Part shown: one piece after another, positions 4,402-60,830 of the stretch | Layout of the letters: each line of letters opens with the position of its first letter | How positions within the stretch are numbered: the stretch's first letter is position 1 | Assembly (NCBI RefSeq): GCF_000381085.1 | Contig: NZ_KB905899.1 | Coordinates: 1,674,001-1,738,000 of the forward strand | Direction of reading: 5' to 3' | Length of the DNA stretch: 64,000 nucleotides | Source: Thiomicrorhabdus arctica DSM 13458 | GTDB taxonomy: Bacteria > Pseudomonadota > Gammaproteobacteria > Thiomicrospirales > Thiomicrospiraceae | Notes under the pieces: model-generated | The model's input: only the letters and a program-made list of their open reading frames with translations | The model's database searches: none | What the model was told of the DNA's origin: nothing | Made by a program: the position numbers and the translations under genes

Positions 4402-5102
4402 ACTCTCTTGCATCAGCATCAACCCACACCAGAAAACCTTTGGCACTTAGCTTAAGGACTCGATGCCAAGATGCGACCAGGCCTGCTCATTTAAAAAGCA
4501 CCTTAAAACAGACTGTTATTCGTGCTGTTTTTCAGAGCTTTATGGGAATGGTTAGCATAACAAGCTTCGTAACCGCTGCGCAGGCCAGTGATGAAATCAT
4601 GATTCTCCGTGTCAGTGATTATCAGCAAAATCAAAAGCTATTGTTGGATTCGGAAAGCCGCTTCAATCTGCCTGACGCCATTATCACCGCCATAAACCAT
4701 GAAATTCCGCTGACCTTTAAAACGGAAATCAGACTCAGTGAAAAAAACCAACGATTGGGTTTCGATTACGAACGTACTCGAGTGGCGATTGAATACCAGA
4801 CCCGCCTTTATGTCGAAGGTGTGAATCCGCGTTATTACCTTTATAACTCGCGCAACCTTAAGACACAAAGCTTTGCTAGTTTAAAATCGGCCTTGCTGAC
4901 CTTAGGTACTTTACAAAGTTTTCCAGTGATCAATCTTTCGGAATTACACCCTAAACAGCACTACACCCTAAAAATGAGAATTTCTTTAGATCACTGGCAA
5001 CTACCCGCTCCCTTACTCATGGAATCACTGTTTAAAAGCCACTGGCGATTAAGCAGTGGTTGGTATGACGTCAGCATACAAACACCTGGGAGCTGGTTAT
5101 AG
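4398..5102 (+). CDS. DUF4390 domain protein
   Basis: A 234-residue protein of unknown biochemical role. Residues about 50-66 form a hydrophobic stretch (FMGMVSITSFVTAAQAS) that looks like a membrane anchor or late signal peptide after a basic, poorly conserved N-terminus. The remainder is a beta-rich domain with the DUF4390 pattern, including IPLTFKTEI, RLYVEGVN, SLKSALLTLGTL and a tail with SSGWYDVSIQ. In many proteobacteria a DUF4390 gene sits directly between rsmB and an NtrY-like kinase, exactly as here, which suggests an envelope role linked to that kinase. A one-mismatch copy of the interspersed palindrome lies within the first third (4477-4488). Confidence 0.8.
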   Translation: MNSLASASTHTRKPLALSLRTRCQDATRPAHLKSTLKQTVIRAVFQSFMGMVSITSFVTAAQASDEIMILRVSDYQQNQKLLLDSESRFNLPDAIITAINHEIPLTFKTEIRLSEKNQRLGFDYERTRVAIEYQTRLYVEGVNPRYYLYNSRNLKTQSFASLKSALLTLGTLQSFPVINLSELHPKQHYTLKMRISLDHWQLPAPLLMESLFKSHWRLSSGWYDVSIQTPGSWL

Positions 5103-5178
5103 TGTCGTTCTCCAATCAATGTAATGATAAAACAATAGAGTTCGATCCTTTAATGTACTTTGAATCGCGAGGCGACAA

Positions 5179-7371
5179 ATGAACTCTCATTTTTGGCGTT
5201 TTTTAAAACAGTATGGTTGGATTACTCTCATTTCGGGTGCATTACTTATTTTGCTCGTGATTATGAGTCAAATTTTGCAAAATGCATCGAGTTTTGCCGA
5301 GACCTATTCAACCCTATTATTTGCAACTTTCGGGGGCGTTGGCGTGCTTCTATTCGTACTCTTTAAAACCCTATGGGGTCTAAGATTACAACGTAAAAGA
5401 AATGTGCCTGGTAGCAAAATCACCATCCGTTTAACGACCATTGCCACCTTAATGTTGGGCATACCGAGCGCGATTATTTTTTACTTCTCTCTAACCTTTA
5501 TTCAACAAGGTATTAATCAATGGTTTGATGTCAAAACCGAAACCGCATTGGAAAATGCGTCGGCTTTGGTGCGTACAGCACTTGATAATAAAACTCGCGA
5601 CATGCTCAATTTAACCCTGGCCGCCGCAAAGGATAAAAGCCCATCACTCGCCACGTCACCGATCATCGAAGTCAGTAAACTGCGAACATTATTAAACGCT
5701 CAAGAAGTCGCTTTATATCATTCTAATCAACAACTTATTGCCTTCAGTAGCGCCGAAATAAGTGATACTTTACCCCTCCCTCCAGGAGACAACCTGTTCC
5801 AACAAATCCGTCAGAAAAAAACCTATGCCGCAATCGAAAGTCATCAAGAGCCTGGATCCGTAGAACAATTTATCCGAGTCATTATTCCATTCTCCGATCT
5901 CGATTTGGCTGGAAACTATGCCCTACAAGTTCTATTTCCCATTCCCAGCAATATGACTCAGCTTGCAGAATCCGTAGCCATAGCCGCTGGTCAATACAAA
6001 GAACTCTCTTATTTAAAAGGGCCTTTAACGGCCAGTTTTATACTCATTTTATCGATGGTATTATTATTGACTCTGGTTACGGCCGTGTTGTTCACCATTC
6101 AGGCCGTGCAAAACTTCACCCGACCTATTCGTACCCTAGCACGTGGCACAAAAGCCGTTTCTAAAGGTGATTATAGTGTCAAAATGACCATCAAAGAGAA
6201 TGATGAATTTGGTGATTTAACCCAATCTTTTAATGATATGATTCAGCGCATATCTAAAGCCAGAACCGACATTAAACTCGGTCATCAACAGACAGAAGTT
6301 CAAAAACTCTATCTGCAAGCCGTCATAAAAAACCTCACCAGCGGGGTACTGACTCTCGACATGAATTTGCGAATCCGCACCACAAACGATGCCGCGCAAA
6401 AAATCCTCAATACCGATTTAGACAGCCATATAGGACAACGCATTGATGAGTGGGTTAAGCATGAACAAAATACCCATTTGTTTGAGCTGTTTGCACACAT
6501 TACTCCCATGTTTAAACAAGGCGCGACCCCTTGGAATTTACAACAAGAATTTACTTGTAAACAAGGCCAAAAAATCCTGATGATCCATGGGTCAACTTTG
6601 CCGAGTGTCGACAAGAAAATTGGTGGTTATGTCATCGTTATTGATGATGTGACCGAAATGGTTCAGGCACAGTTAAATGCCGCTTGGAGTGATGTAGCGC
6701 GTCGTTTAGCACATGAAATCAAAAACCCGTTGACACCCATTCAACTTTCGGCAGAGCGTCTTAATTACAAACTCCACGCTAAACTTAACAATGAAGATCA
6801 AGCCTTACTTGCGCGAATGACCAACACTATCATTGAACAAGTGTCGACCATGCAAACTCTGGTTCAAGCCTTCTCAGATTATGCCAATACGCCTGATGTG
6901 CTACTCCAACAAACCGACATTAACCGTCTCATCACTGATATTGCAGAGATGTATCGCGCGCCTTCAGCCAGCTGGAGAGTACAAATAGACCTTACAAAAG
7001 AGTGTCCCTTGGTATTGGCTGATAGCGCCCGTTTGCGCCAACTTCTGCATAACCTTATAAAGAATGCCCTTGAGGCGACTGTCGACACAATACTGCCTCG
7101 CATTAAAATTACCACGCTCTATCAAGATACTGAAAACATCACCCTCAGCATCTGTGATAATGGACCGGGGATACCAGAAGAATCGCAGAACTGGATTTTT
7201 GAGCCTTATGCCTCTGATAAACCAAAAGGCACTGGTTTAGGCCTGGCCATTGTGCGTAAAATTGTGGAAGAGCACCGGGGTAAAATTACGCTGAATTCCT
7301 CACCGGATGAAGGCACCTGTTTTATAATTACTTTACCCGTATTATCGAGTGAAAATGAAGGACCTAAATGA
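5179..7371 (+). CDS. NtrY-like transmembrane sensor histidine kinase
   Basis: A 730-residue sensor kinase. Three to four hydrophobic segments lie in the N-terminal part (about 10-32, 40-62, 84-108 and 280-310) and flank a periplasmic sensing region. A HAMP domain follows (RPIRTLARGTKAVSKGDYSV), then a PAS-like segment (about 375-490), the dimerisation H-box HEIKNPLTP with phospho-accepting His at about 512, and an HATPase with DNGPGIPEES and GTGLGLAIVRKIVEEHRG. The order matches the NtrY family. Its stop overlaps the start of the response regulator as ATGA, so the two form a two-component pair. The signal is unknown; NtrY homologues respond to nitrogen or redox state, which is only a family-level hint. 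Confidence 0.9.
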   Translation: MNSHFWRFLKQYGWITLISGALLILLVIMSQILQNASSFAETYSTLLFATFGGVGVLLFVLFKTLWGLRLQRKRNVPGSKITIRLTTIATLMLGIPSAIIFYFSLTFIQQGINQWFDVKTETALENASALVRTALDNKTRDMLNLTLAAAKDKSPSLATSPIIEVSKLRTLLNAQEVALYHSNQQLIAFSSAEISDTLPLPPGDNLFQQIRQKKTYAAIESHQEPGSVEQFIRVIIPFSDLDLAGNYALQVLFPIPSNMTQLAESVAIAAGQYKELSYLKGPLTASFILILSMVLLLTLVTAVLFTIQAVQNFTRPIRTLARGTKAVSKGDYSVKMTIKENDEFGDLTQSFNDMIQRISKARTDIKLGHQQTEVQKLYLQAVIKNLTSGVLTLDMNLRIRTTNDAAQKILNTDLDSHIGQRIDEWVKHEQNTHLFELFAHITPMFKQGATPWNLQQEFTCKQGQKILMIHGSTLPSVDKKIGGYVIVIDDVTEMVQAQLNAAWSDVARRLAHEIKNPLTPIQLSAERLNYKLHAKLNNEDQALLARMTNTIIEQVSTMQTLVQAFSDYANTPDVLLQQTDINRLITDIAEMYRAPSASWRVQIDLTKECPLVLADSARLRQLLHNLIKNALEATVDTILPRIKITTLYQDTENITLSICDNGPGIPEESQNWIFEPYASDKPKGTGLGLAIVRKIVEEHRGKITLNSSPDEGTCFIITLPVLSSENEGPK

Positions 7372-8708
7372 AAGCAGGTAAGCTATTAATTGTCGATGAC
7401 GAAAAAGACATCCGAAACTTAATGGAAGAAATCTTTATTGAGGAAGGTTATCAAGTTGAAACAGCCGCAAATGGTATACAAGCCCAAAACGCCTGGCGCA
7501 AAACCCTGCCTGACGTCATCTTCCTAGATGTATGGATGCCGGATATCGATGGCATTTCATTGTTGGCCGATATGCAAAAAGAACATGTTTTAGATCATGC
7601 GAAAGTGATTATGATGTCTGGACATGGCACGATTGAAACCGCGATAGAAGCCACAAAACTAGGTGCCTACGATTTTCTGGAAAAGCCACTTTCACTCGCT
7701 AAGCTGATTGTCACCGCAGAACGCGCGCTTGAACACAATCGATTAAATCAAGAAAATCGACAGCTTAAACAGAAACAGCCAGAACAACTTTTACCCATTG
7801 GCAAAAGTAAAAGCATCATTCAGCTCAGAGAGACCATTGACCGTCTGTCGAAATTCACCATGCCCATTTTAATCAGTGGAGAGCCCGGTTCAGGTAAACA
7901 TCATATTGCGCGCGCTTTACATAAAACGAGTAGCCGTAAAGACTATGCCTTAGTGGAGATATCTGCGATTGACTTCAATCGGTTGACAGATGAAGTTGTA
8001 TTAGATCCTTTAAAAAAGCTCCTGAGAGAGGCCCATAACGGCTCTTTAGTGATTGCTAACCTTGAGCAACTCTCCGCCAACTCACAACATATTCTAGCCA
8101 CCTTAATTCAGAAACAGGTCTACCAAGCCACACCTGGCAGTGATGCCATTGCAATGGATATCCGCTTGATTGCCTTATCTAAAACGGATTTGGAACAAGC
8201 TGTCCAGCAAAGCAATTTCAGAGATGACCTTTACCAACGCTTAAAAGTGATGCCCATTCTGTTACCGGCTTTGCGCCAACACACGGAAGATATTCCAGAA
8301 TTAGTAGACTACTTTGTAAATCACTTTGTCACACAAGAAACGCTTGAATACCGTCACTTTACCGTCCCGGCACAGAACGTTTTGCGCCAATACGGCTGGC
8401 CTGGCAACCTGAAAGAGTTGAAAAATTTAATTCAACGCATTCTTATACTGGGCCGTGGCGAAGTCACCGATTCTGAAATAAAAAATGCCTTACAGAAAAT
8501 TGATAATTCCGTGGAACAAGACTCTACAGTGGATACGTCACTGCTGTTAAAAGAGGCAAAAGATAGACTAGAAGGGGCCTATTTAAGTCAGTTGCTACGA
8601 GAAACGGGGGGGAATGTCTCTGAAACAGCAAAACGTTCAGGCATTGATAGAACCAACCTCTACCGTAAATTGAAAGCGCTTGGAATCAACCCCAAAAACC
8701 CCACATAA
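7368..8708 (+). CDS. NtrX-like response regulator with a degenerate sigma-54 AAA+ domain
   Basis: Partner of the preceding kinase. The receiver domain (1-120) has the acidic pair VDDE, phospho-acceptor Asp54 in FLDVWMPD and the conserved Lys107 in LEKPLS. The central AAA+ domain (about 142-365) keeps a Walker A (GEPGSGKH, 171-178) and an arginine-finger region (FRDDLYQRLKVMPILLPALR). The GAFTGA sigma-54 contact loop is missing, and the Walker B position reads LVIANLEQL rather than a hydrophobic stretch ending in Asp-Glu. The C-terminus is a Fis-type helix-turn-helix (GGNVSETAKRSGIDRTNLYRKL). It probably binds DNA but is unlikely to open sigma-54 promoters in the standard way. Confidence 0.9.
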   Translation: MKAGKLLIVDDEKDIRNLMEEIFIEEGYQVETAANGIQAQNAWRKTLPDVIFLDVWMPDIDGISLLADMQKEHVLDHAKVIMMSGHGTIETAIEATKLGAYDFLEKPLSLAKLIVTAERALEHNRLNQENRQLKQKQPEQLLPIGKSKSIIQLRETIDRLSKFTMPILISGEPGSGKHHIARALHKTSSRKDYALVEISAIDFNRLTDEVVLDPLKKLLREAHNGSLVIANLEQLSANSQHILATLIQKQVYQATPGSDAIAMDIRLIALSKTDLEQAVQQSNFRDDLYQRLKVMPILLPALRQHTEDIPELVDYFVNHFVTQETLEYRHFTVPAQNVLRQYGWPGNLKELKNLIQRILILGRGEVTDSEIKNALQKIDNSVEQDSTVDTSLLLKEAKDRLEGAYLSQLLRETGGNVSETAKRSGIDRTNLYRKLKALGINPKNPT

Positions 8709-8792: not shown

Positions 8793-8811
8793 AACACAAA
8801 GACACACAACT

Positions 8812-11772: not shown

Positions 11773-12399
11773 ATGAGTCACACGAAAACGCTAAATTCCG
11801 CCGAAAAATGGGATGCAAAATACCAGCAAGCCTCCCTAAAAACACCTGCTAACCCAAGTTATGTGCTTAAACAGCACAGTCGTTTACTGCCGTTTCGTGG
11901 GCAAGCCCTTGAACTGGCGTGCGGTTTGGGGGGCAATGCCCGTTTTCTGGCACTCTGTGGATTAAAAACACATGCTTGGGATATCTCGGACACGGCCTTA
12001 ACCATCCTCAATAATTGGGCGAGTCTTAACCACCAGCCCATCACCCCCTTGATTACGGATTTAGAGCAGATGATTCTGCCCTTTCAGCAATTTGATGTCA
12101 TCGTGGTCAGTCATTATTTGGACAGAAGCTTGTTCTCAGCCATTGAAGACGCGCTTAAACCCGGCGGTTTACTCTTCTATCAGACCTTTTTAGGACCTGT
12201 GCAAGACAATGCACCACAGAATCCAGATTTTTACATCCACTCTGGAGAGTTCAACCAGGCCTGGTCAAAACTCACCACCGAAGTCTATGGAGAAGGTTGG
12301 TTAACAAATGAAAATCACCGTGAAAATGACCCAGAACAGACATCTGAAAATACCTCAAAACATCGGTATGCCTGGTATATTGGCCGTAAAATCGCGTGA
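11773..12399 (+). CDS. Class I SAM-dependent methyltransferase
   Basis: A 208-residue Rossmann-fold methyltransferase. The AdoMet-binding motif I is ALELACGLGGNARFLA (about 41-56), motif II is around HAWDIS (67-72), and later strands include QFDVIVVSHYLDRSLF and LKPGGLLFYQTF. It most resembles the small TehB/UbiE-like methyltransferases of unknown substrate. A perfect copy of the interspersed palindrome lies in the C-terminal part and encodes NQAWS. The gene starts 32 bases after trkH, and its stop overlaps the GTG start of the next gene, so it is probably co-transcribed with the EamA transporter. Confidence 0.82.
   Translation: MSHTKTLNSAEKWDAKYQQASLKTPANPSYVLKQHSRLLPFRGQALELACGLGGNARFLALCGLKTHAWDISDTALTILNNWASLNHQPITPLITDLEQMILPFQQFDVIVVSHYLDRSLFSAIEDALKPGGLLFYQTFLGPVQDNAPQNPDFYIHSGEFNQAWSKLTTEVYGEGWLTNENHRENDPEQTSENTSKHRYAWYIGRKIA
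12254..12265. repeat. Interspersed palindrome copy (12 bp, inside the methyltransferase gene)
   Basis: Perfect ACCAGGCCTGGT, read in frame as NQAWS. Confidence 0.85.
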
Positions 12400-13326: not shown

Positions 13327-13338
13327 ACCAGGGCTGGT
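13327..13338. repeat. Near copy of the interspersed palindrome
   Basis: ACCAGGGCTGGT, one mismatch from the consensus, in the gap after the EamA gene and flanked by T/A to give a slightly longer imperfect palindrome. Confidence 0.5.
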
Positions 13339-14107: not shown

Positions 14108-14119
14108 ACCAGGCCTGGT
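14108..14119. repeat. Interspersed palindrome copy (12 bp, intergenic)
   Basis: Perfect ACCAGGCCTGGT, 55 bases before hairpin repeat copy B. Confidence 0.85.
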
Positions 14120-14162
14120 CAAATCCAAAAGCACTACATAAACCCAATAAAGAACAGACGAG

Positions 14163-14399
14163 CTCACGTGGAGACCTCCCCTTTTGTAAGCAATCGTCAT
14201 TTCACTTAGCGAAGGACGCGTTTAAACATTCCCTGTGTCTGAGCGAAGCGAGTTTAGGGAATGTCAGCGAACAAGCTTAGTGAAATAGAGGGCGTCAGCA
14301 GGGTGTCTTTTGTTTGGTTACTTTATTTGGACAAGCAAATAAAGTGACGGGAAGCCGTAGATAAAAATAAAGGCCTATAAATATCAAAAGGCTTCTCAA
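14163..14399 (+). repeat. Hairpin repeat copy B
   Basis: A 237-bp element, clearly homologous to copy C. It holds an outer stem ATTTCACTTAGC/GCTTAGTGAAAT (14199-14210 and 14275-14286), an inner stem CATTCCCT/AGGGAATG (14227-14234 and 14256-14263), and a 3' hairpin TTACTTTATTTG/CAAATAAAGTGA (14318-14329 and 14336-14347). GAAGCC and GGCTTC near the 3' end can form a closing stem. The only open frame here (14068-14280) runs through the stems and does not look like a gene. Confidence 0.8.
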
Positions 14400-14416: not shown

Positions 14417-14442
14417 ATATATAACCAGGCCTGGTTATATAT
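14417..14442. repeat. Interspersed palindrome copy with arms extended to 26 bp
   Basis: The ACCAGGCCTGGT core (14424-14435) is flanked by matching AT-rich arms, so the whole 26 bp is a perfect palindrome. It lies 56 bases before hairpin repeat copy C. Confidence 0.85.
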
Positions 14443-14479: not shown

Positions 14480-14717
14480 TCACGTGGAGACCTCCCCTTT
14501 TGTAAGCAATCGTGCAATTCACTTAGTGAAGGACGCGTTTAAACATTCCCAATGTCTGAACGGAGCGAGTTCTGGGAATGTCAGCGGACAAGCTTAGTGA
14601 AATAGAGGGCGTCAGCAGGGTGTCTTTTGTTTGGTTACTTTATTTGGACAAGCAAATAAAGTGACGGGAAGCCGAAAGAGAAAATAAAGAGTTATAAATA
14701 TCAAAAAGTCTTCTCAA
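14480..14717 (+). repeat. Hairpin repeat copy C
   Basis: A 238-bp direct copy of element B with scattered substitutions. The inner stem is CATTCCCA/TGGGAATG, where copy B has CATTCCCT/AGGGAATG: a compensatory change. The 3' hairpin and the GACGGGAAGCC segment are identical to B. Confidence 0.8.
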
Positions 14718-14756: not shown

Positions 14757-14768
14757 ACCAGGCCTGGT
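14757..14768. repeat. Interspersed palindrome copy (12 bp, intergenic)
   Basis: Perfect ACCAGGCCTGGT, 40 bases after hairpin repeat copy C, so palindromes and repeats alternate in this array. Confidence 0.85.
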
Positions 14769-15457: not shown

Positions 15458-15469
15458 ACCAGGCCTGAT
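15458..15469. repeat. Near copy of the interspersed palindrome
   Basis: ACCAGGCCTGAT, one mismatch, in the gap between two convergent genes. Confidence 0.5.
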
Positions 15470-18944: not shown

Positions 18945-19898
18945 TTAAGATTTATAAATATCCACCACACCTGCTGGTGGATGGCGAAAACGTTTATAAG
19001 ACCAAAGATACTGTTCTGGTGCCAAGGCAATACAAGCTTCAATCCCTGCATTTAAAGCCGTCGTCGCAACCAACTCATCTGTACTTCCAATATCGGCATC
19101 GGTCGGCAAAAAGTGCAGCCGATAACCTTCGGCATTGGGCAGACGCTCCATCATCATAAACAACACAGCACAATCGGTTTTCTGAACCAATTTACTCACA
19201 AAAGTCATACTGCGGGCCGGTCGTCCAAAAAACGGTGCATAAACACCACCCGATTCGCCAGGATCTTGATCGGGCAAAATCCCGGTTACTTCATTGTTCT
19301 TTAGGGCTTTAATTAGGGTACGTACACCCCGTAAGTCCGTCGGCACTAGCTTACCTCCAAATCGCGAACGCGCTTTCTTCATAAAGGATTCAACCGAAGA
19401 GACATTAGGGGGGCGATAGAGAAAGGTAGAAGGATAGCGGCTCGCTAAATAGATGGCATTCAGCTCCCAATTACCAATGTGAGGGCCGAGAAAAATCACC
19501 CCTTTCTGATTCGTAATCGCCTCATCCAATAAGGCCTGGCCTTTTATCTCTTTAATCAAAGGTAAAATCTGTTGATTAGGCCAACACCACATTGGCCCGA
19601 GTTCGGTAATGGTTTTACCTAACTCGAATAAGGTATTGTGCAGCAAAACTTTCTGTTCATCCGGCCTTAAGTCGGGATAAACCACCTGGAGGTTTTTCCG
19701 AGCGATACTTTTCTGACTGTTCGGCAACCAAATTAATAACCAACCGATGCCACGACCGAGTCTTTGATTCCAGGCTAAAGAGAACCAGGAAAAGGCAATG
19801 ACCAAGCCTTTTAGTAAGGCCCCTAACCAGGCCTGGTCATTTACTGTGCGTTTTTTAGCAGGCTTTTTCTCAGGCAGTTGATGCTTTAAATGACTCAT
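18945..19898 (-). CDS. LpxL/HtrB-family lipid A acyltransferase
   Basis: A 317-residue inner-membrane acyltransferase that adds a secondary acyl chain to lipid A precursors. One hydrophobic segment near the N-terminus (about 27-45) is followed by the catalytic HxxxxD/E-type motif HIGNWE (about 139-144) and the conserved FLYRPP and LPDQDPG segments. The length is normal. The start overlaps the ttcA stop as ATGA, indicating an operon. A perfect interspersed palindrome lies within residues 21-27 and encodes DQAWL, just ahead of the membrane anchor. Whether it acts as LpxL or LpxM cannot be decided from sequence alone. Confidence 0.88.
   Translation of the reverse strand: MSHLKHQLPEKKPAKKRTVNDQAWLGALLKGLVIAFSWFSLAWNQRLGRGIGWLLIWLPNSQKSIARKNLQVVYPDLRPDEQKVLLHNTLFELGKTITELGPMWCWPNQQILPLIKEIKGQALLDEAITNQKGVIFLGPHIGNWELNAIYLASRYPSTFLYRPPNVSSVESFMKKARSRFGGKLVPTDLRGVRTLIKALKNNEVTGILPDQDPGESGGVYAPFFGRPARSMTFVSKLVQKTDCAVLFMMMERLPNAEGYRLHFLPTDADIGSTDELVATTALNAGIEACIALAPEQYLWSYKRFRHPPAGVVDIYKS
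19826..19837. repeat. Interspersed palindrome copy (12 bp, inside the acyltransferase gene)
   Basis: Perfect ACCAGGCCTGGT; on the coding (minus) strand it reads as DQAWL. Confidence 0.85.
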
Positions 19899-20902: not shown

Positions 20903-21964
20903 ATGCACCTAATATCACACCTTACAAAACGCATTTGCATTAAAACCTTATTTGGCTATGGCCTTTTGTTGGCACTGACATTCGCAGTAAACACTGCAAA
21001 TGCAAACACGCTAGCGACGCCGGAAAATGACCAGGCCTGGTCATTTTCTACCGACTTAGGAATGGATTCTTTGAATATCAGTGGCCTCATTGTTAGCAGC
21101 GACTTTATGGCGCTGGCAACGGATGAAGGTCATCAAATACAACTGTTTACGCGCCTCAAAACAAATTCGGGCCAACTTATCTGGCAACCCGGTCAACTCA
21201 TCTCCCTAGACAGCTCGATGGCCGCCTTGAATACCGAATTGGATATTGAAGGCTTGGCTTGGCAAGCGCCCTATCTCTACGCCATCGGCTCTCACAGTGT
21301 GAAACGCGCTAAACTCAAAAAAAACAAATCTGCTAAACAGAATTTGAAACGACTACAAACCGTCAGTAGAGAACCTGCCAGACAACAGCTGTTTCGCATT
21401 GAACTGGATAGGCACTATAAAGCCGTTAAGGTTGAAAGCCTTTCATTAGCAGAAGAGTTACAAAATCATGCAACGTTAGGTTTATTTGTGGGGATTCCCA
21501 GTAAAGAAAACGGGGTCGATATTGAAGGATTGGCAATCGATGTTAAAGGTCGCCTGTTAGTCGGTTTTAGAGGACCGGTGTTGCGTGGCAATATCGCTAC
21601 CGTTTTACGTTTAAAGTTGCATAAAAAGAAGTTTAAAATCAAATCGGTTAAAACCCTCTATCTGCCCCTAGCTGGCAGAGGGATTAGAGGCATAAGTGAA
21701 ATGGAACCTGGTTTTCTAGTGTTGACAGGTGCGGTGGGCGACCAAGACTTAAGCTATCAAGTCATTCTCTGGAATGGTGAAGATGCCTTACCGAGTGAAT
21801 CTGCTTCTAAAACGGCCTTACGTTATCTATGCGACCTCCCATCAAGCATGGGTAAACCCGAAGGCATTCAATTTTTACAAAAAACCGCGACAAGGATAGA
21901 GTTCATCATTGTTCAAGACGGTCTCAAAAACGGACAACCCACTGTTTTTAGCTGTGCACTTTAA
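20903..21964 (+). CDS. DUF3616 family exported protein
   Basis: A 353-residue protein of unknown function with a signal peptide (GLLLALTFAVNTANA, about 20-34). The mature part has repeated beta-strand segments typical of DUF3616: ISGLIVSSDFMALATDEGHQIQLF, DIEGLAWQAPYLYAIGSHS (each longer than needed for recognition), DIEGLAIDVKGRLLVGFRGP and PEGIQFLQ. This looks like a beta-propeller-like fold. A 26-bp palindrome built on the interspersed core falls right after the signal peptide and encodes ENDQAWSFS. The gene stands alone, divergent from ttcA. Confidence 0.82.
   Translation: MHLISHLTKRICIKTLFGYGLLLALTFAVNTANANTLATPENDQAWSFSTDLGMDSLNISGLIVSSDFMALATDEGHQIQLFTRLKTNSGQLIWQPGQLISLDSSMAALNTELDIEGLAWQAPYLYAIGSHSVKRAKLKKNKSAKQNLKRLQTVSREPARQQLFRIELDRHYKAVKVESLSLAEELQNHATLGLFVGIPSKENGVDIEGLAIDVKGRLLVGFRGPVLRGNIATVLRLKLHKKKFKIKSVKTLYLPLAGRGIRGISEMEPGFLVLTGAVGDQDLSYQVILWNGEDALPSESASKTALRYLCDLPSSMGKPEGIQFLQKTATRIEFIIVQDGLKNGQPTVFSCAL
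21023..21048. repeat. Interspersed palindrome copy with arms extended to 26 bp (in a gene)
   Basis: The core ACCAGGCCTGGT (21030-21041) is flanked by GAAAATG and CATTTTC arms, making a perfect 26-bp palindrome inside the DUF3616 coding sequence. Confidence 0.85.
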
Positions 21965-27772: not shown

Positions 27773-28540
27773 TTAAAGCAGATGAGATACGTTTTCATAA
27801 AGAATAAAGACACCCATTAAAACCAAGAAAACGGCAAAACCCTGTTTCAACTGATGTTGATTGACCCTGCTACTCAGTTTATGCCCTAACCAGCTACCAA
27901 ATACGCCAATCGTAGAAAAAATGCCAATCACTTGCCAATCGATGCTTAAATTTAATGCCTCTAGTACTTTTATATACCCAATAAAACCAGAAAATGAATT
28001 CATGGCGATAATAACCAAGCTCGTACCGACCGCCAATCGCATTGATAAACTGCCTAGCAAAGCCAGTGCTGGAATAATTAAAAACCCACCTCCTACTCCG
28101 ACTAAACCTGTTACCGACCCAACAAGAAAGCCATCAATGGCAATTTTAATCATCGCACGTTCAGGACCGTCTCTCTCTGAAGGGTTTAATTTAACGGGCT
28201 TAAACATCAGATAAGAAGCCACTAACAACAGCATTGCAAAAATTAACATTTGAATGGCACCACTGACAAAGTGTGCAGCCCAAGCACCCGCGACCGCCCC
28301 CATCATCCCTGGAAGGCCAAAAACCACAACGGTACGCCATTTAACAAGCTTTTGAAAGGCATAAGGCAGTGCTGCAAAGACACTGATAATACCGACAATC
28401 ATCAAGGAGCTAGCAATCGCAAGCTTTGTCTCTTGACCCACCACATAGGTTAATACAGGTACCGTCAGAATGGAGCCACCAGAGCCCAGTAAACCTAACG
28501 TTATGCCTATAAAAAGCGCACCCACCCAAGCTAAAATCAT
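27773..28540 (-). CDS. TauE/SafE (TSUP) family membrane transporter
   Basis: A 255-residue inner-membrane protein with seven to eight hydrophobic segments. The two TSUP glycine-rich motifs are present: [16 protein letters not shown] (about 18-33) and [15 protein letters not shown] (about 140-154). Members export or import sulfite, sulfoacetate or other organosulfur anions, which fits the sulfur theme of the window, but the substrate here is not known. Its start overlaps the trmA stop as ATGA, so the two genes are co-transcribed. Confidence 0.9.
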
Positions 28541-29631
28541 ACCGCTTTCCTTTTTAAAAAGACACCGCTTTCAATGTGGTGCGTATACGGAAACTGATCA
28601 AATAAAGCAGACTCGACAATATCGTGGGTTTTCTCAATTTCGATTAAGTCTATCGCCAAGGTTTCTGGATTACAGGAGATGTAAATAATACGCTCAAACT
28701 CTGCCACCATTTTACGGGTTAAGTTATCTAGCCCCGAACGTGGCGGATCCACAAAAATCGTCTCAAAATGATAGGAGGCTAAATCGACCTCTTTTAGCCG
28801 AGTAAATTCTTGTCCCTGCAACGCTTGTGAAATTTCTTCGGCAGCCATCTTGACCACAGTTACGTTTTCTACCTGATTAGCGGCGATATTAAACAATGCG
28901 GATTTTACTGAGGTTTTTGAAATCTCAGTTGCCAATACGCGATTATAAAACTCCGATAACGCAATCGAAAAGTTGCCATTACCGCAATACAGTTCAATTA
29001 AATCACCCGCTGCACCTTTAGAGACCTTTCGAGCCCAGTGCAACATTTTTTGTGCAACCCCAGCATTCGGCTGAGTAAAAGAGTTTTCGATTTGCTGATA
29101 AGTAAAGATCTTACCATCGACGTGCAATTTCTCGATGATAAAATCCTGTTCTAAGAGAATTTTTTGCTTTCTAGCACGGCCAATGATATGCGTAATGGGT
29201 AAGGTTGTTTTCAATCGGTTCGCAGAATCCAGCCAGGCCTGGTTACCTTCAATTCCGCATCGGTAGATCAATGTCACCAACATGTCACCACTGAGTGTCG
29301 CTAAGAAATCCACTTGGAACAGTCGTAGACGTAACACCTCATTGGCCGTAATCTCTGCCATCAATTTTGGCATTAAGTCTGCAATTGACTCAATCGCCAT
29401 GGGGCACTGCTTTATATTCACCTTCTGCTTGGTTTCCTGGTCAAACATAATGTAATCAGTCTCATCTCCTTCATGCCATATGCGGAATTCTGCACGAGCC
29501 CTGTAATGCCGAGGTTCAGAGGCAAACACCGTGAGGTGATGTAACGATGGGATCAAATCCTGCAAACGCTGGGTCTTTTCAGCCAGCTGAGATTGATATT
29601 GTTCAGGAAAAACTTGGCAGAGCATGTTCAC
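28537..29631 (-). CDS. trmA: tRNA (uracil-54-C5)-methyltransferase TrmA
   Basis: Methylates U54 of tRNA to make the T in the T-loop. The 364-residue protein has the catalytic-core motifs of the TrmA/RumA family: [12 protein letters not shown] (AdoMet), [11 protein letters not shown] and [13 protein letters not shown] (catalytic Cys region). The N-terminal iron-sulfur-cluster motif of RumA is absent, which favours TrmA over RlmD. A perfect 10-bp palindrome core is present and encodes NQAWL. It precedes the TauE/SafE transporter with a four-base overlap. Confidence 0.93.
29232..29243. repeat. Interspersed palindrome core (10 bp, inside trmA)
   Basis: GCCAGGCCTGGT: the perfect core CCAGGCCTGG at 29233-29242 with a mismatch in one outer base. 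It reads as NQAWL on the coding strand. Confidence 0.75.
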
Positions 29632-31380: not shown

Positions 31381-34300
31381 ATGACATTACGTGCACAACG
31401 CCTGACCACCTTAAAATCCTTACTAAAAGAGCGTGTTTTGGTGCTTGATGGCGCCATGGGAACGATGGTGCAAGATAAACAGCTTTCGGAAGAAGAGTTC
31501 CGTGGCGAGCGTTTTGCCGACTATCACATGGACATCAAAGGCAACAACGATATCCTGGTTATCACACAACCAGAAATTATCCGTGACATTCATTTGGCGT
31601 TTCTACGCAACGGCGTGGACATTCTTGAGACCAATTCATTCAATGCCACCACCATTGCGCAAGCCGATTATGACATGCAAGATTACGTCGCTGACATTAA
31701 TTTGCAAGCCGCCTTGGTGGCTCGTCAAGCCTGCGATATTGCAGAAGCTGAAGATGGTAAACCGCGTTTTGTGACCGGGGTTTTAGGGCCGACTAACCGG
31801 ACTGCGTCTATCTCACCTGACGTCAATGACCCAGGTTATCGCAACACCTCATTTGATGAACTTGTCATAGCCTTTAAACAAGCGACTCATGCACTCCTTG
31901 AAGGCGGTGTAGACACCATTCTGATTGAAACCGTTTTCGATACTTTGAATGCCAAAGCGGCCATATTTGCTGTAAAGGAAGTCGAAGATGAAGTCGGTTA
32001 TGAAGTGCCCATTATGCTGTCTGGCACGATAACAGATGCCTCAGGTCGTACTCTTTCTGGCCAAACGACGGAAGGTTTCTATAATGCCGTCGCCCATGCT
32101 GAACCGCTTTCGGTCGGTTTGAACTGTGCCTTAGGGCCGCAAGAATTGCGTCCTTATGTAGAGGAGCTGAGTCGCGTTTGCGAAACCTATGTCTCGATTC
32201 ACCCCAATGCAGGTCTGCCGAACGAATTTGGTGAATATGATGAAACGCCTGAAGAGATGGCGGAAGAGATCTCTATCTGGGCAAGGCGCGGTTGGATCAA
32301 TATCATCGGTGGCTGCTGCGGCACGACGCCTGCACATGTCCAGGCAATGGCCGAAGCCGCTTTAAAGCATCCGCGCCGTCCACTGCCGGAGATTAAACCT
32401 GCCTGTCGTTTATCAGGTTTAGAACCTTTAAACATAGATGAAACCTCTCTGTTCGTCAATGTCGGTGAACGCAACAACGTCACTGGCTCAGCTAAATTCA
32501 AGCGTTTAATCATAGAAGATAACTATGAAGAAGCTATTGATATTGCCATTAAACAAGTTCAAGAAGGCGCACAAATCATCGACGTCAATATGGATGAAGG
32601 CATGTTGGATGCCAAGGCGTGTATGAGTCGTTTCTTGAATTTACTGGCCTCTGAACCGGAAGCCTCTCGCGTGCCTATTATGATTGACTCCTCTAAATGG
32701 GAAGTCATTGAAGCCGGTTTGAAATGTATTCAAGGTAAAGGTATCGTTAATTCGATCTCGTTAAAAGAGGGCGAAGAAGCCTTTATTTACCATGCGAAAC
32801 TGGTCAAAAAATATGGTGCAGCAGCGATCATAATGGCCTTTGATGAAGATGGCCAGGCAGATACCTTAGCGCGAAAGATTGAAATCTGTCAGCGCTCTTA
32901 TGATGTATTAACCCAAAAAGTAGGCTTTTTACCGCAAGACATTATTTTCGATCCCAATATCTTTGCCGTGGCGACGGGGATTGAAGAGCATAATAATTAC
33001 GGCTTAGATTTCATTCATGCCGTGACCTGGATTAAAGCCAACTTACCGCATGCCAAAATTTCGGGCGGCGTCTCAAACGTTTCCTTCTCTTTCCGTGGCA
33101 ATAACCCTGTGCGTGAAGCAATCCACTCAGTTTTCCTCTATCACGCCATCAAAGAAGGTATGGATATGGGGATTGTAAATGCCGGACAGATGGCCATTTA
33201 TGATGACCTACCAGAAAAACTACGCCAAGCTGTTGAAGACGTTATTCACAATACCGATCCAGAAGCGGGCGAACGTTTACTGGATATCGCCGCCACCTTT
33301 TTGGGTGATGGCACCACGGCCAGTAAAGAGGCTGACCTATCTTGGCGTGAAGCACCTGTCGCAAAACGTATTGAACATGCTTTAGTGCGTGGCGTAACGG
33401 ACTTTATCGTAGAAGATACTGAAGAAGCGCGCTTAGAACTCGGCGCACCGATTAATGTGATTGAAGGTCCACTTATGGATGGCATGAATGTAGTCGGCGA
33501 TCTGTTCGGTGCCGGAAAAATGTTCTTACCACAAGTGGTTAAATCCGCGCGCGTCATGAAACGTGCGGTGGCCTACCTTGACCCTTTCCTGGCGGCTGCA
33601 AAAAGCACTGGCCAGGCGCGCGGAAAAATCGTCATGGCAACTGTTAAAGGCGATGTCCATGACATCGGTAAAAACATCGTTGGTGTCGTTCTGCAGTGTA
33701 ATAACTTTGATGTCATCGATTTAGGCGTTATGGTACCGGCCGAAAAAATATTGGATACCGCCATCGCCGAAAATGCCAATGTCATTGGTCTATCAGGCTT
33801 AATCACGCCTTCACTTGAAGAGATGGTCAATGTTGCCAAACTGATGAAAGAACGAGGTATGAATTTACCTCTACTCATTGGCGGGGCAACCACTTCCAAA
33901 GCTCACACAGCCGTCAAAATTGAACCGCAATACGACTGCCCCGTTGTTTATGTCAAAGACGCCTCGCGCGCGGTGGGTGTAACGCAAAGCTTGATTTCAA
34001 ATGAATTGAAAGCCGACTATGCCGCTAAAATTCGCGCTGAATATGAAACGGTTCGTGAAGAACGTAAAGCCCGTGCCAAGCAGGTTAAACGTATCTCGAT
34101 CACCAAAGCCCGTGAAAATCCTTCTATTGAAAACCAGGCGTGGTCAAATTATGTTCCGGTTAAGCCGAGTTTTATAGGCCGTAGAGTTCTGGAGGACTTT
34201 CCACTAGAAACCCTACTTGAAAAGTTTGATTGGTCCCCCTTCTTCCAGTCATGGGAACTACATGGTCTTTACCCACGCATTTTGGATGACAAAGTGGTTG

Positions 34301-43870: not shown

Positions 43871-43888
43871 TCTACTATTTATGTTTTG

Positions 43889-43914
43889 AAAAACCACCAG
43901 GCCTGGTGGTTTTT
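43889..43914 (+). terminator. Terminator formed by an extended interspersed palindrome
   Basis: The core ACCAGGCCTGGT (43896-43907) has arms extended to a perfect 26-bp palindrome with five A at one base and a run of nearly seven T at the other. As RNA it is a 12-13 pair GC-rich stem followed by U, a standard Rho-independent terminator; because the arms are symmetrical it can also end the ccoS transcript coming from the other side. Confidence 0.8.
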
Positions 43915-43996
43915 TTATTTGTCCGAAACCAAGTCATCTTCTCAGTAATTAACCAACGCCATTAACTTCTAATAATGAATAGGGCAATCACGTTTG

Positions 43997-48956: not shown

Positions 48957-49121
48957 CTAATCGACTTTGTTTTCGTCTTTGTTTTCATCTTTGTTTTCGT
49001 CTTTTTCTAAGCCTTCCATCGCTCTTGCCGTCTTCCAAGCAAAGCCGATGAATGCCACAATACTAAGCACTAATGCAGCAAGTGAAATCCAAAGAACAAA
49101 GTTACTGTTTAATTCATTCAT
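48957..49121 (-). CDS. Small single-helix membrane protein (54 residues) with KDEN repeats
   Basis: The frame codes for 54 residues and is too short for a normal gene-length cut-off. ATG 49121 is preceded by GGAG at a good distance. One membrane helix (about 8-28, FVLWISLAALVLSIVAFIGF) is followed by a charged tail that repeats KDEN three times through a 12-base tandem repeat. It lies between ccoP and ccoG. Short membrane proteins attached to cbb3 clusters are common (for example CcoQ, CcoM), so an accessory role is plausible, but no known family is recognised. Confidence 0.65.
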   Translation of the reverse strand: MNELNSNFVLWISLAALVLSIVAFIGFAWKTARAMEGLEKDENKDENKDENKVD

Positions 49122-53120: not shown

Positions 53121-53708
53121 ATGCGCAAAGCAACCATCGAGCGTGATACGCTTGAAACTCAAATTACAGTCTCAGTAAACCTCGATGGTCAAGGCGATGC
53201 CAAATTAGATACTGGTGTTCCTTTCTTCGAGCACATGTTAGACCAAATTGCCCGTCACGGTATGATTGACATTGACATTAAGGCAAATGGCGATACACAT
53301 ATAGACGATCACCATACCGTAGAAGATGTGGGTATCACGCTCGGTCAAGCCATTAATCAAGCGGTGGGTGATAAAAAAGGCATTACCCGTTACGGTCATG
53401 CCTACGTACCACTGGATGAAGCACTCTCTCGAGTTGTCATTGATTTATCAGGTCGACCAGGCCTGGTCTTTAATGCCGACTTCACACGTGAAAAAATTGG
53501 CAACTTTGAAACTGAGTTGGTGTTTGAATTTTTCCAAGGCTTTGTTAACCACGCTAACGTTACATTACATATCGACTGTTTGCGCGGTCACAACTCACAC
53601 CACCAGGCGGAGACCATTTTCAAAGCCTTTGGTCGAGCATTGCGCATGGCACTTTCTGCGGATGAACGCATGGCAGGCAAAATGCCTTCTACCAAAGGAA
53701 GTCTCTAG
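53121..53708 (+). CDS. hisB: Imidazoleglycerol-phosphate dehydratase HisB
   Basis: Catalyses the seventh step of histidine synthesis. The frame extends to 53091, but ATG 53121 with CAGGA ahead gives 195 residues, the length of the monofunctional enzyme. The metal-binding histidine-rich motifs are [11 protein letters not shown] and [16 protein letters not shown], with [13 protein letters not shown] and the [10 protein letters not shown] strand. The interspersed palindrome falls in the last of these, in a different reading frame from its usual one. It heads hisBHAFE. Confidence 0.95.
53455..53468. repeat. Interspersed palindrome copy (14 bp, inside hisB)
   Basis: GACCAGGCCTGGTC, read in hisB as RPGLV, the only gene copy that does not encode QAW. 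Confidence 0.8.
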
Positions 53709-54439: not shown

Positions 54440-55186
54440 ATGTTATTGATTCCTGCAATCGATTTAAAGGATGGTGAATGCGTTCGCCTAAGACAAGGTG
54501 TTATGGAAGGTGCGACCGTCTTCTCTGGTGACATTGTTGCCATGGCCGAAAGATGGGTGACTCAAGGTGCTCGCCGTTTACACATGGTCGATCTTAATGG
54601 TGCTTTTGAAGGCAAGCCAGTGAATGGCGAAGCCGTGTATCAAGTACGTGCAGCTTATCCTGATCTACCGATCCAAATCGGTGGCGGAATTCGTGATTTA
54701 GCCACTATCGAAGCTTATTTAAATGCGGGTGTGAGTTATTGCATTATTGGGACACAGGCAGTCCACAACCCTGCATTTGTCGCCGAAGCTTGTAAAGCCT
54801 TCCCTGGTCACATTATGGTTGGTCTAGATGCTGTCGATGGCATGGTTGCCATTAACGGTTGGGCTGATGTGACTGACCATGAAGTCACAGAACTTGGTCG
54901 ACAGTTTGAAAATGACGGCGTTGAAGCCATTATCTATACTGACATTGGGCGTGACGGTATGATGCAAGGGGTTAATATCGAAGCCACTCAAGCTTTGGCC
55001 AAAGCACTGAGCATTCCAATTATTGCTTCTGGTGGCATCACCAATTTGGATGATATTACCCGCTTAGCAAGTATTGAAGCAGATGGTGTCACTGGCGCGA
55101 TTACCGGTCGTGCCATATATGAAGGCTCTTTGGACTTTAAAGCGGGGCAAACACTTTCAGACAAGTTGTCACCGTTAAGAAAGTAA
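54440..55186 (+). CDS. hisA: Phosphoribosylformimino-AICAR ribotide isomerase HisA
   Basis: Fourth enzyme of histidine synthesis, 248 residues, a TIM barrel. Conserved parts are [18 protein letters not shown] (catalytic Asp8), [31 protein letters not shown] (Asp about 173) and IIASGGITN. The TAA stop is part of an interspersed palindrome. It is separated from hisH by a 92-base region with two palindromes. Confidence 0.96.
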
Positions 55187-55197
55187 CCAGGCCTGGT
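55186..55197. repeat. Interspersed palindrome copy overlapping the hisA stop codon
   Basis: Perfect ACCAGGCCTGGT whose first A is the last base of the hisA TAA. It lies in the short hisA-hisF gap. Confidence 0.85.
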
Positions 55198-55233
55198 CAA
55201 ACCGACCTCATTAGACCCAATTTAGGAAACACT

Positions 55234-56342: not shown

Positions 56343-56407
56343 CATCCACTGGTAGCCTATGAGCTACCTGATTAATAGGCGTTTATTCAGCCATAAGGAA
56401 TTCACCC

Positions 56408-57227: not shown

Positions 57228-57319
57228 AGAGGTCGGCACTTGCTCTTGAACATCTGCCGTTATTTTTGTTTTAATCTAGCAATGCGTTCGCTCGCTTAAC
57301 GTCTATGTAGGTCTGTTGT

Positions 57320-57835: not shown

Positions 57836-57859
57836 GCTTTGACATATGAGTAGCCCAGC

Positions 57860-58930
57860 ATGAGCAATACAGCGCTCCCGCCTAAAGATCAAGAGATGAC
57901 TTTAGTACAGCATCTGCTTGACCTAAAGACCAGCTTGACACGTGCAATTCTTGCTATCATAGTATTGTTCCTGTGTTTATTTCCATTTGCGAATGACATC
58001 TACACCTATATTGCGGAACCGTTGACACGCTACCTGCCGGAAGGCAGCAGCATGATTGCAACGGCTGTTGCCTCTCCTTTCTTAACCCCGTTTAAGTTAG
58101 CCTTTATTTTAGCGATCTATATGGCCATGCCCTACTTGCTTTATCAAGTTTGGCGATTCATTGCACCTGCACTGTACTCACATGAAAAACAATTAGTTGC
58201 ACCCATTCTATTCTTTAGCTCCTTCTTATTTTATGCGGGTGGTGTGTTTGCTTACTATGTTGTATTTCCACTGGTCTTCGGATTTTTATCACAAAGTGCA
58301 CCGGAAGGTGTCACCATTGCCACGGATATTTCACTCTACCTAGATTTTGTCATCAAGATGTTCTTTGCTTTCGGCATGGCGTTTGAAGTCCCTATTGTCA
58401 CGGTTTTGTTAATTCTGACGGGCATGACATCCGCTGAGAAACTTAGCCATTCACGGCCCTACATAGTGGTTGGCGCATTTGTCATTGGAATGTTACTAAC
58501 GCCGCCGGATATCATTTCGCAGACGATGCTGGCCGTGCCAATGTGGCTATTATTTGAGATTGGTTTATTGGTCGGTGGATACGTGTTTAAACGTCGACAG
58601 AAAAACAACGAAACTCATCCAAATGATACTGACCCTGATGGTCAAAGCAGTACAATGAGTGAGACTCAGCCTGAATATGAGTTCGATGATCGCTATGCAG
58701 ATCAAGTGGATGATGATTTAGATTGGGATGCGGAGTTTGATAAGGTCGACTCTGAGATGAGTATTCTGGAAAAAGAGTATCTGAAATCACAAGAGGCGAA
58801 AAAGCGAGATGAAGCATCTACTGACTCTAAAGATCCACTCACTGAAAAAACGGATTCAAAACCAGATACAGCGGACGAACGTTCTAGCGATACAAAAAGT
58901 GATTCACCTCTCCTTAACGAGAACAAATAG
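57860..58930 (+). CDS. tatC: Sec-independent protein translocase subunit TatC with a long acidic tail
   Basis: The signal-peptide receptor of the Tat system. Residues about 1-245 form the normal six-helix TatC, with HLLDLKTSLTRAI, FLTPFKLAF, YQVWRFIAPALY, FAFGMAFEVPI and GMLLTPPDIISQ. After the last helix (about 225-243) there is a basic stop KRRQKNN and then about 110 extra residues rich in Asp, Glu and Ser, with a possible coiled segment. Typical TatC has about 250 residues, so this tail is unusual. It ends before a 32-bp palindrome. Confidence 0.95.
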   Translation: MSNTALPPKDQEMTLVQHLLDLKTSLTRAILAIIVLFLCLFPFANDIYTYIAEPLTRYLPEGSSMIATAVASPFLTPFKLAFILAIYMAMPYLLYQVWRFIAPALYSHEKQLVAPILFFSSFLFYAGGVFAYYVVFPLVFGFLSQSAPEGVTIATDISLYLDFVIKMFFAFGMAFEVPIVTVLLILTGMTSAEKLSHSRPYIVVGAFVIGMLLTPPDIISQTMLAVPMWLLFEIGLLVGGYVFKRRQKNNETHPNDTDPDGQSSTMSETQPEYEFDDRYADQVDDDLDWDAEFDKVDSEMSILEKEYLKSQEAKKRDEASTDSKDPLTEKTDSKPDTADERSSDTKSDSPLLNENK

Positions 58931-58965
58931 CAACAGGCTCAACAATCCTCTTAAAAAATATCTAT

Positions 58966-58997
58966 TTTCAAAGCGACCAGGCCTGGTCGCTTTGAAA
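58966..58997 (+). terminator. 32-bp perfect palindrome after tatC, probable terminator
   Basis: The interspersed core ACCAGGCCTGGT (58976-58987) with arms extended to 32 bp, all paired. It sits 36 bases after the tatC stop. The strong GC-rich stem is bounded by TTTC/GAAA; the U-tract is short, so termination is likely but not certain. Confidence 0.6.
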
Positions 58998-59075
58998 CGG
59001 CGTGTCAACAAACACTGTAGAACACCACAACCCCTACTTTTACACGCTCCGAACCGCTTCAATCCTTTAAATAGA

Positions 59076-60830
59076 ATGGTATTATTGTTCGCCATCGGTT
59101 GTATCTTAGGACACCCGCTTTCTGGTGAAGCATCGACTTTACCCCCAGCTCAGACCAATCAACTCTATCAAAACCCAAGTCCTTATCTAGCCATGCATGG
59201 ACAAGACCCCGTTGAATGGTATCTTTGGAGTGCTGCTGTGTTGAAAAAGGCTCAAAACGAGAACAAACCCATATTCATCTCCAGTGGCTATTTTTCCTGT
59301 CACTGGTGCCATGTGATGCAACGGGAAAATTACCATAATGTGAAAACTGCGGCCTATCTCAATCGGCATTTCATCTCCGTAAAAATTGATAGAGAACTCA
59401 ATCCTGAGCTCGATAAAACCCTGATTGAATTTGCTGAAAAGACCACTGGCCAAGCAGGTTGGCCACAGCACGTCATACTCACTCCAGAAGGCTATCCTTT
59501 TGCGTCATTTATCTACCTTCCCAACGCTGTATTCAACGCCACGTTACAACGCGTTGTTGAAATTTGGAATAAACAACCGGGTAAAATCCGTACCTTGGCC
59601 AAACAATTCGTAGAGCCAGCAAGTCATCCTCATCCATTTAATGTCTCGCGCTCTATGTTTTTACAGCAACTATTACAGCAACTATTACAGCAATTAGAAC
59701 GTGCAAAAGATGATTTAAGCGGTGGCCTGAAAACAAATGCGAGTAAATTTCCACAAGCACCCCTTCTGCAAACTGCATTAAGTATAGAACGCTTACCTCA
59801 CTCCATTGAAGAGTGGTTATTGTTCACTCTAGATCAAATGCAGTCCCAACATCTTTTTGATCATATTAATGGTGGATTTTACCGTTATACCGTAGACCCA
59901 GAGTGGCAGACTCCACATTTTGAGAAAATGGCCTACACCAATGCCTTATTGGCTGATCTTTATCTACAAGCCGGACAACGTTTTAATCGCCCAGATTATC
60001 TCCAGACAGCCTTAACCACACTCAGCTATCTGCAAAAACATCTATACAACCCAGTCACTCAACTTTATCAAAGCAGTCAATCAGCCATTGATGCCCACAG
60101 TGTAGAAGGCGGCGATTATTTATGGCGTAAATCCCGACTTCAACAAGCACTCACCAAACAGGAGTTCTCTGCAATTGACCAGGCCTGGTCGCTTTCTAAA
60201 CCCGCACCTTATGATCGGTTAGGTTGGCACCCCACTCCACTCACAGCCAAAAATAGCCTTTTATGGCCGACCATCCGAGCGAAGCTACAAACCAACCCGT
60301 CACAAATCCCGATAGACAGTAAAAGCATACTGGGATGGAACGGTTTGATTTTATCAGCGTTAAGTAGAGCGTATGCCGTTTTAAAGGATCCCATTTATCT
60401 CAGGCAGTCCAACCAACTGGCTAAAGTGTTGATGCATCAGATAATGCAAGAGCACCCTCCTCGCGCCTTATCAGTCGATGGGTTGGATATGGGAGAAGCG
60501 AACCTACAGGATTATGCGTTTATTTATCAAGGCATCACCCATTGGCAAAAACTGACACAGCAAACGACTTATCAAACGGATATGAGCCAACTTGAAAAGA
60601 CCATCATCCAACGATTCTATACAAAATCAGGCTGGCAATATCAGTATGCGCCTCTTCTACCAGGCCAACAGGGTGAATGGCTGATGGCTGATAATGCGAT
60701 ACCAAGCCCAACTGCCATCATCAGCTGTCTTGAGCCACAATCTGTTCAATTTGCGGGTAAAGCCTTGTTGGGGAACCCGTTGAGTTATGCAACGTATCTC
60801 AAAACATTAGACTGTATTGAACGCCGTTAA
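59076..60830 (+). CDS. DUF255 thioredoxin-like protein (YyaL family), exported
   Basis: A 584-residue protein of the thioredoxin/six-hairpin glycosidase type. ATG 59076 begins a signal peptide (VLLFAIGCILGHPLSGEAS); the frame is open upstream to 58809 but only through the palindrome and tatC, so that start is not accepted. The thioredoxin-like domain (about 20-160) has the family signature SCHWCHVMQRENY and TGQAGWPQHVILTPEG. The C-terminal helical domain includes NGGFYRYTVDPEWQTPHFEKMAY. A 12-base tandem repeat encodes LLQQ units. A palindrome copy near residue 370 encodes DQAWS. Confidence 0.86.
   Translation: MVLLFAIGCILGHPLSGEASTLPPAQTNQLYQNPSPYLAMHGQDPVEWYLWSAAVLKKAQNENKPIFISSGYFSCHWCHVMQRENYHNVKTAAYLNRHFISVKIDRELNPELDKTLIEFAEKTTGQAGWPQHVILTPEGYPFASFIYLPNAVFNATLQRVVEIWNKQPGKIRTLAKQFVEPASHPHPFNVSRSMFLQQLLQQLLQQLERAKDDLSGGLKTNASKFPQAPLLQTALSIERLPHSIEEWLLFTLDQMQSQHLFDHINGGFYRYTVDPEWQTPHFEKMAYTNALLADLYLQAGQRFNRPDYLQTALTTLSYLQKHLYNPVTQLYQSSQSAIDAHSVEGGDYLWRKSRLQQALTKQEFSAIDQAWSLSKPAPYDRLGWHPTPLTAKNSLLWPTIRAKLQTNPSQIPIDSKSILGWNGLILSALSRAYAVLKDPIYLRQSNQLAKVLMHQIMQEHPPRALSVDGLDMGEANLQDYAFIYQGITHWQKLTQQTTYQTDMSQLEKTIIQRFYTKSGWQYQYAPLLPGQQGEWLMADNAIPSPTAIISCLEPQSVQFAGKALLGNPLSYATYLKTLDCIERR
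60177..60190. repeat. Interspersed palindrome copy (14 bp, inside the DUF255 gene)
   Basis: GACCAGGCCTGGTC, read in frame as DQAWS. Confidence 0.85.

Follow-up and report, generated by a model that had tools for sequence, protein, structure and literature searches.

The Neisseriaceae and the Pasteurellaceae are the only families known to use short genomic words in the uptake of DNA (PMC12616744). In the case of the Neisseriaceae, the DNA uptake sequence (DUS), generally present in at least 1,000 copies (PMC1852404), exists in dialects that share a conserved inner core and follow phylogeny (PMC12616744; PMC1852404), and the uptake signal sequence (USS) of the Pasteurellaceae consists of a core and AT-rich segments spaced by helical turns (PMC12616744). 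Inverted pairs of both words are also described as a habitual component of terminators (PMC1852404, PMC13020248). Here, we describe a short palindrome, ACCAGGCCTGGT, which is scattered over a 64,000-nucleotide stretch of the genome of the sulphur oxidiser Thiomicrorhabdus arctica DSM 13458 (contig NZ_KB905899.1, positions 1,674,001 to 1,738,000; hereafter the window), as well as over the rest of this genome, and which, by analogy with these systems, most likely marks DNA as self during its uptake from the surroundings. We found no published description of ACCAGGCCTGGT or of its dialects, judging by titles and the start of abstracts in a literature collection of partial coverage, with many subscription papers outside it; the exact string had no match there, and short related strings matched papers on other subjects, among the matches listed. 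The available parts of PMC5217627 and PMC6501319 contain nothing on such a motif.

The palindrome resembles the DUS, whose reader is the minor pilin ComP, in its hundreds of dispersed copies, in its dialects, which are built on a conserved inner core and follow phylogeny, and in the inverted pairs found in terminators. It differs from it in sequence and in family, in being for the most part perfectly palindromic and flanked by A/T tracts, in its lower copy number, and in that its reader and its role in uptake are predicted. With the USS it shares the co-option into terminators and, in its directional dialects, the combination of a core with one A-tract; however, the USS core, AAGTGCGGT, is neither related nor palindromic and has its AT-rich regions downstream, whereas the palindromic dialects described here are flanked on both sides.

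The original prediction, made on the window only, had reported twelve copies of the core CCAGGCCTGG, far above chance. These are all the copies that the window contains, compared with a mean of 0.02 and a maximum of 1 in 100 shuffled sequences, and at 11 of the 12 places the complete 12-letter palindrome ACCAGGCCTGGT is exact. Over the complete genome (2,552,883 bp) there are 333 copies, the reversed pattern used as a control being found 0 times, which rules out a count near expectation. Their density is similar in the first 827 kb (100 sites) and in the remaining 1.73 Mb (233 sites), and no regular spacing, one of the properties proposed for checking, was seen among the first 100 sites (contig C1 to 827 kb), where the spacing is exponential-like (mean 8.2 kb, coefficient of variation 0.90, Kolmogorov–Smirnov p 0.37).

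The partly conserved flank that had been suspected is real. In 52 sites from 364 kb of this genome, AAAnYR precedes the core and YRnTTT follows it, with A at positions -6 to -4 in 33, 42 and 38 sites and T at the mirror positions in 39, 34 and 32 (sites too close to the end of a locus were left out of the flank logos and the blast queries). Core and flanks together form a palindrome of 24 bp, in which the A/T tracts lie roughly one helical turn away from the dyad, and no conserved sequence was found in these sites past ~12 bp on either side of the dyad. The same 364 kb contain 27 cores with one mismatch, all positions summed. In a relative, G021 (genomes are given here by our own handles), the flanks are weaker and show another spacing. 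The 52 sites also show a C after the core without the mirrored G in 17 cases and the reverse in 5 (p 0.017), an asymmetry that may reflect orientation.

The enrichment extends well beyond the window and its genome, which rules out a peculiarity of this window only. Among the 62 genomes of the family, identical to those of the order, ACCAGGCCTGGT occurs at least once in 41, with 80–718 copies in 27 genomes, 16–38 in four and at most 6 in 31. In a class-wide draw of 369 genomes, each of the 365 lying outside the family has at most 5 copies, and the palindrome is absent from 78 gammaproteobacterial hisF loci (1.46 Mb) used as a negative control, the loci having been taken from a HisF-based scan (best 80 of 590 matches, mostly other Gammaproteobacteria). 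In Thiomicrorhabdus sp. NP51, 3 exact copies are present in 13.5 kb around hisF.

Relatives that are low in ACCAGGCCTGGT often carry a different word. G026 has ACCGGCCGGT (67 copies in 180 kb), and forms of GAACAGGCCTGTTC are found in G023, in G046 and, at their loosest, in G047. Other dialects are directional, with an A-tract on one side only: AAAACTCAACAGGCCGGGTA in G022, where the degenerate AMCAGGCCKGKT is found 278 times per strand, and AAAATCTRCCAGGTTGGG in G008 and G013, where the 14-mer TCTRCCAGGTTGGG reaches 135/167 and 164/187 copies, respectively, against 0–4 in the other 60 genomes. These words are re-spelled between species around a [AC]CAGG or CCGG core; they group with the tree in the tested part of the genus (a tree of 30 hisH loci only). 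Inverted pairs of the directional words do occur: among 33 sites in G022 there are three plus/minus pairs at distances of 10–14 bp and a minus/plus pair at a distance of 59 bp, and among 14 sites in G008 there is one pair 23 bp apart; in G013 there is none among 7 sites, and a separate list of its sites shows at least one.

In the hisH-region tree (30 rows), G024, G050, G040, G028, G042 and G051, which have 0–2 copies of ACCAGGCCTGGT, form one well-supported clade, sister to the G022/G036 pair. We call motif-poor those genomes that lack every word described here. In 40–80 kb of G024, G042, G028, G029, G030, G050, G051 and G004, no 12-mer of such a kind was found to be enriched; the motif-poor status of G040 and of the G037–G045 group is based mainly on pattern counts, and another dialect is possible there. 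For motif discovery at most 25 kb was available from G041, G001, G002 (with 0% G+C in that DNA), G014, G017 (left out), G019, G036, G038 and G045. In G007, 28 copies of an array-like repeat containing TCCGCGGCTAGG lie within 80 kb (C1:1-80000) and swamp its k-mers, so that a dialect is possible there too.

Comparison of orthologous positions indicates that the word is maintained. The copy within hisB (53456–53467) is exact in 7 of 30 aligned genomes, including that of the window, and the copy at the hisA-hisF junction (55186–55197) in 8 of 30, again including it; all these genomes have at least 197 copies. At hisB, the other 23 genomes, among them the word-rich G025 and G049, differ by substitutions with no gap. 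At the junction, the genomes without the word, other-dialect carriers included, mostly have a shorter spacer, and the word-rich G034 shows a changed copy. Within the same dialect, 88 of 133 comparisons preserve the 12-mer exactly, whereas the remaining 12-mers of these alignments are preserved in 332 of 5,853; the 133 comparisons are not independent and represent about nine orthologous slots, six of them common to at least one other genome and three not. Against motif-poor species, the exact 12-mer is preserved in 0 of 187 comparisons, with a background of 266 of 8,145. In a broader set of 370 query sites, a known word stands at the aligned place in 13 of 115 other-dialect cases versus 0 of 205 motif-poor ones. 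These 13 cases come essentially from one slot, in a gene of G031 that is presumably ybeY, where the word is exact in G022 (AACAGGCCGGGT) and in G025 and G031 (ACCAGGCCTGGT), relaxed in G023 and G046 (GCAGGCCTGGT), present as a one-mismatch form in the genome of the window, and absent from G008 and G026. Positional re-spelling has therefore been seen once, and most slots are not common across dialects.

Copies were said to lie both in intergenic DNA and within genes, on both strands; the placement is confirmed, and the strand has no meaning for a perfect palindrome. Exact copies fall within coding sequences (CDSs) for a methyltransferase-like protein (12254–12265, in CDS 11773–12399; the aligned 12-mer is identical in G021), a lipid A acyltransferase-like protein (19826–19837, in CDS 18945–19898, minus strand), a DUF3616 protein (21030–21041, in CDS 20903–21964) and a DUF255 protein (60178–60189; open reading frame (ORF) 58809–60830). 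The twelfth core, GCCAGGCCTGGT at 29232–29243, with one outer mismatch, lies within a tRNA U5-methyltransferase-like CDS (28537–29631, minus strand). Three copies, at 14108–14119, 14424–14435 and 14757–14768, are intergenic, the second of them within a longer palindrome (tatata-core-tatata), and another (58976–58987) sits in the middle of a perfect palindrome of 32 bp (tttcaaagcg-core-cgctttgaaa) located ~45 bp past the tatC stop. The near copies predicted at 4477, 13327, 15458 and 34133 are one-mismatch forms, namely ACCAGGCCTGCT (4476–4487), ACCAGGGCTGGT (13327–13338), ACCAGGCCTGAT (15458–15469) and ACCAGGCGTGGT (34133–34144, within the methionine synthase CDS); a further one, ACCTGGCCTGGT (2908–2919), had been overlooked and, with that at 29232, brings such places in the window to six. 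Two short tandem arrays of 12-bp units are also present in the window, at 48961–49004 and 59661–59693.

On a larger scale, 26 of 52 sites lie in CDSs in the genome of the window, 31 of 52 in G021 and 39 of 67 in G026, where the coding share of the DNA is 87–90% (these coding fractions are approximate, having been called by a simple codon-score ORF caller). Of the 73 pooled intergenic sites, 24 are in convergent gaps and 5 in divergent ones, these two kinds of gap making up 13% and 18% of gap DNA, respectively. The copy at 43896–43907, in a convergent gap, is the stem centre of a terminator-like hairpin (43888–43915); palindrome sites can serve as terminator stems. A scan for terminator hairpins that includes this site found 17 sites overall, versus 16.2 in shuffles. 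The palindrome combines an excess in non-coding DNA with co-option into terminators, as known uptake words do.

Biased uptake followed by recombination yields a word that is dispersed, tolerated and not placed, re-spelled between species, co-opted into terminators and missing in one clade. By analogy with the known systems, we propose that the palindrome belongs to a third, independent DNA-uptake-sequence system, mostly palindromic and kept by biased natural transformation, a reading to which we give a probability of roughly 0.68. An uptake signal was among the candidates of the original prediction and is the best supported of them, through the dialects, the maintenance at orthologous sites, the terminator co-option and the presence of DprA and ComEC; its role is assigned by analogy. 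In this model, ACCAGGCCTGGT would be the self-recognition word of a natural-transformation system like those of the Neisseriaceae and the Pasteurellaceae. A surface type IV minor pilin would bind AAAnYR-ACCAGGCCTGGT-YRnTTT on outside DNA, retraction of the pilus and ComEC would import it, and DprA and RecA would recombine it. As word-bearing DNA would be preferentially taken up, recombination would keep and multiply the word wherever it is tolerated, a molecular drive. Related species use words re-spelled around the [AC]CAGG or CCGG core; in some of them the word is directional, with one A-tract, and in most carriers two half-sites would stand back to back as a palindrome. If the palindrome is a collapsed inverted pair, DNA could be caught in either strand orientation. 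Three points of this model are inferences: the word would influence uptake, its reader would be a pilin, and the palindrome would go back to two half-sites in inverted order. The more detailed proposal, that this third, independently evolved system belongs to chemolithoautotrophic sulphur oxidisers of one gammaproteobacterial family, that its palindrome is probably a collapsed pair of inverted half-sites, that directional and palindromic dialects exist side by side within single genera and that its candidate reader is a standalone minor pilin whose C-terminal domain has no name, is one that we favour a little less firmly.

The machinery of natural transformation is represented in the genome of the window by ComEC, by type IV minor pilins (found by profile search) and by DprA, the DNA processing protein of natural transformation, whose gene had been recognised in the window (332–1480, minus strand) and is borne out by its domain (PF02481, 2.2e-77). 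The candidate reader is a standalone minor pilin of ~173 residues, for which Pfam at cut-off gives nothing beyond the N-terminal methylation motif and comparison with NCBIfam and with PDB sequences gives weak general pilin matches only. In three carriers of a word, G022, G023 and G047, it is flanked by xerC and hslV, and in two others, G025 and G031, by glgP and glmS (the names dapF, xerC, hslV, glgP, glmS and ybeY for genes around the pilin are those that we take their translations to indicate). In G031 it sits, by eye, among small toxin-antitoxin-like genes.

Several observations weigh against the uptake reading. ComEC does not discriminate, being present in 56 of 62 genomes, most of the motif-poor ones included. 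Among 15 genomes inspected, 11 have nothing in the slot between xerC and hslV, eight of them motif-poor and three motif-rich (G046, G021 and G026). G029 has an intact standalone pilin and no enriched word in ~77 kb, and could represent either a receptor that has outlived its word or a carrier of an unrecognised dialect. In the genome of the window, the standalone pilin was not located among the PF07963 matches or in six sampled contig-end stretches; of the seven PF07963 matches, three belong to a pilus cluster and the other four, judged by their spacing, resemble a type II secretion operon. Neither hslV nor glmS was found in the six stretches, nor glmS in two further stretches of G021. In addition, known uptake sequences are not palindromes (PMC1939737). 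The association is incomplete, and the standalone minor pilin is to be regarded as a candidate receptor, a lead and not a result.

Other pilin-like proteins were considered and set aside. A GspH/FimT domain (PF12019) occurs in three motif-poor genomes of 62, where two loci are, by eye, type II secretion pseudopilin operons; a weak pilin match of G026 lies, by eye, in a plasmid-type pilus region, and the single pilin of G056 does not match the standalone-pilin query. We also observed a conserved cluster of large pilin-like proteins (~250–570 residues) with a common PCPD motif, in motif-rich and motif-poor species alike.

The main rival explanation, already raised by the original prediction as a site for a nucleoid or segregation protein, is an operator-like site for an intracellular homodimer with a role in nucleoid organization, segregation or repair, several hundred sites being selected for spread-out binding. 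The matS, SlmA and Noc sites are palindromic protein-binding sites spread over a chromosome. The perfect dyad, whose A/T tracts lie roughly a helical turn away from its centre, the conservation at orthologous sites and the similar density in the two parts of the genome are all consistent with such a site. The directional dialects of G022, G008 and G013, with one A-tract and unlike halves, are awkward for a homodimer, and the copy number varies widely among relatives, falling to 0–2 in the six-species clade. Terminator co-option and dialect drift are habits of uptake sequences, and no candidate protein came up, no search aimed at one having been made. Moreover, unlike the matS, SlmA and Noc sites, the palindrome is present in hundreds of copies, shows no regional confinement in the comparison of the first 827 kb with the rest of the genome and undergoes dialect turnover between congeners. 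Altogether, we consider this explanation unlikely.

A palindrome of the HIP1 type, made or kept by DNA methylation together with methyl-directed mismatch repair, seems considerably more doubtful. Cyanobacterial HIP1 is also a much-iterated GC-rich palindrome, replaced by other palindromes (alternate HIPs) in some relatives (PMC4390886), and in G021, once the 12-mer is set aside, AGGCCT is found about twice as often as expected (124 versus 62). In the genome of the window, however, GGCC (1750 versus 1749 expected) and AGGCCT (136 versus 120) are near expectation outside the 12-mer. The word described here also differs from HIP1 in its 12-bp core within a 24-bp motif, in its lower density and in its non-palindromic dialects, which do not fit a mechanism of this kind. 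A cognate methyltransferase, proposed for checking, does not track the motif as far as the C5 class is concerned: its profile, PF00145, has no match in the genome of the window or in ten g6/g7 genomes with 181–688 copies, and it is found in 9 of 27 motif-rich genomes versus 15 of 35 others, these 35 including other-dialect carriers. The search, in which 18 of the 27 genomes with at least 80 copies lacked the domain, covered the C5 class only, and for C5 methylation the suggestion finds no support.

Spread by transposition of a mobile palindrome or miniature element, another of the candidates first put forward, is hardly credible for most copies. Two clusters of the palindrome are interspersed with copies of a dispersed intergenic repeat of ~220 bp; in the window, two such copies (14150–14370 and 14480–14684, 93.7% identity) have palindromes before, between and after them, ~316–333 bp apart, and some of the palindromes, a minority, may have been copied along with this repeat. 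The shorter hisA-hisF spacer where the word is absent would also fit. On the other hand, the gap-free substitutions in the 23 hisB genes lacking the word, those of motif-poor relatives included, and the lack of conserved sequence past ~12 bp on each side of the dyad argue against an inserted element. It is equally improbable that the sites are a family of intrinsic terminators of transcription built on one standard stem, since, despite the enrichment in convergent gaps, the hairpin at 43896 and the flank pairing above expectation at intergenic sites but not at coding sites in the genome of the window (0.81 versus 0.53, second pair), about half of the sites lie inside CDSs and flank pairing is no clean sign, coding sites of G021 also being in excess at the third and fourth pair and G026 showing little at either kind.

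If the uptake reading is true, a third family, with relatives in which the word is palindromic, directional or was not found, would make the origin of uptake words open to testing, as well as their changes of dialect, their turn into palindromes and their loss. From a practical point of view, the word would also provide a handle for the transformation of sulphur-oxidising autotrophs.

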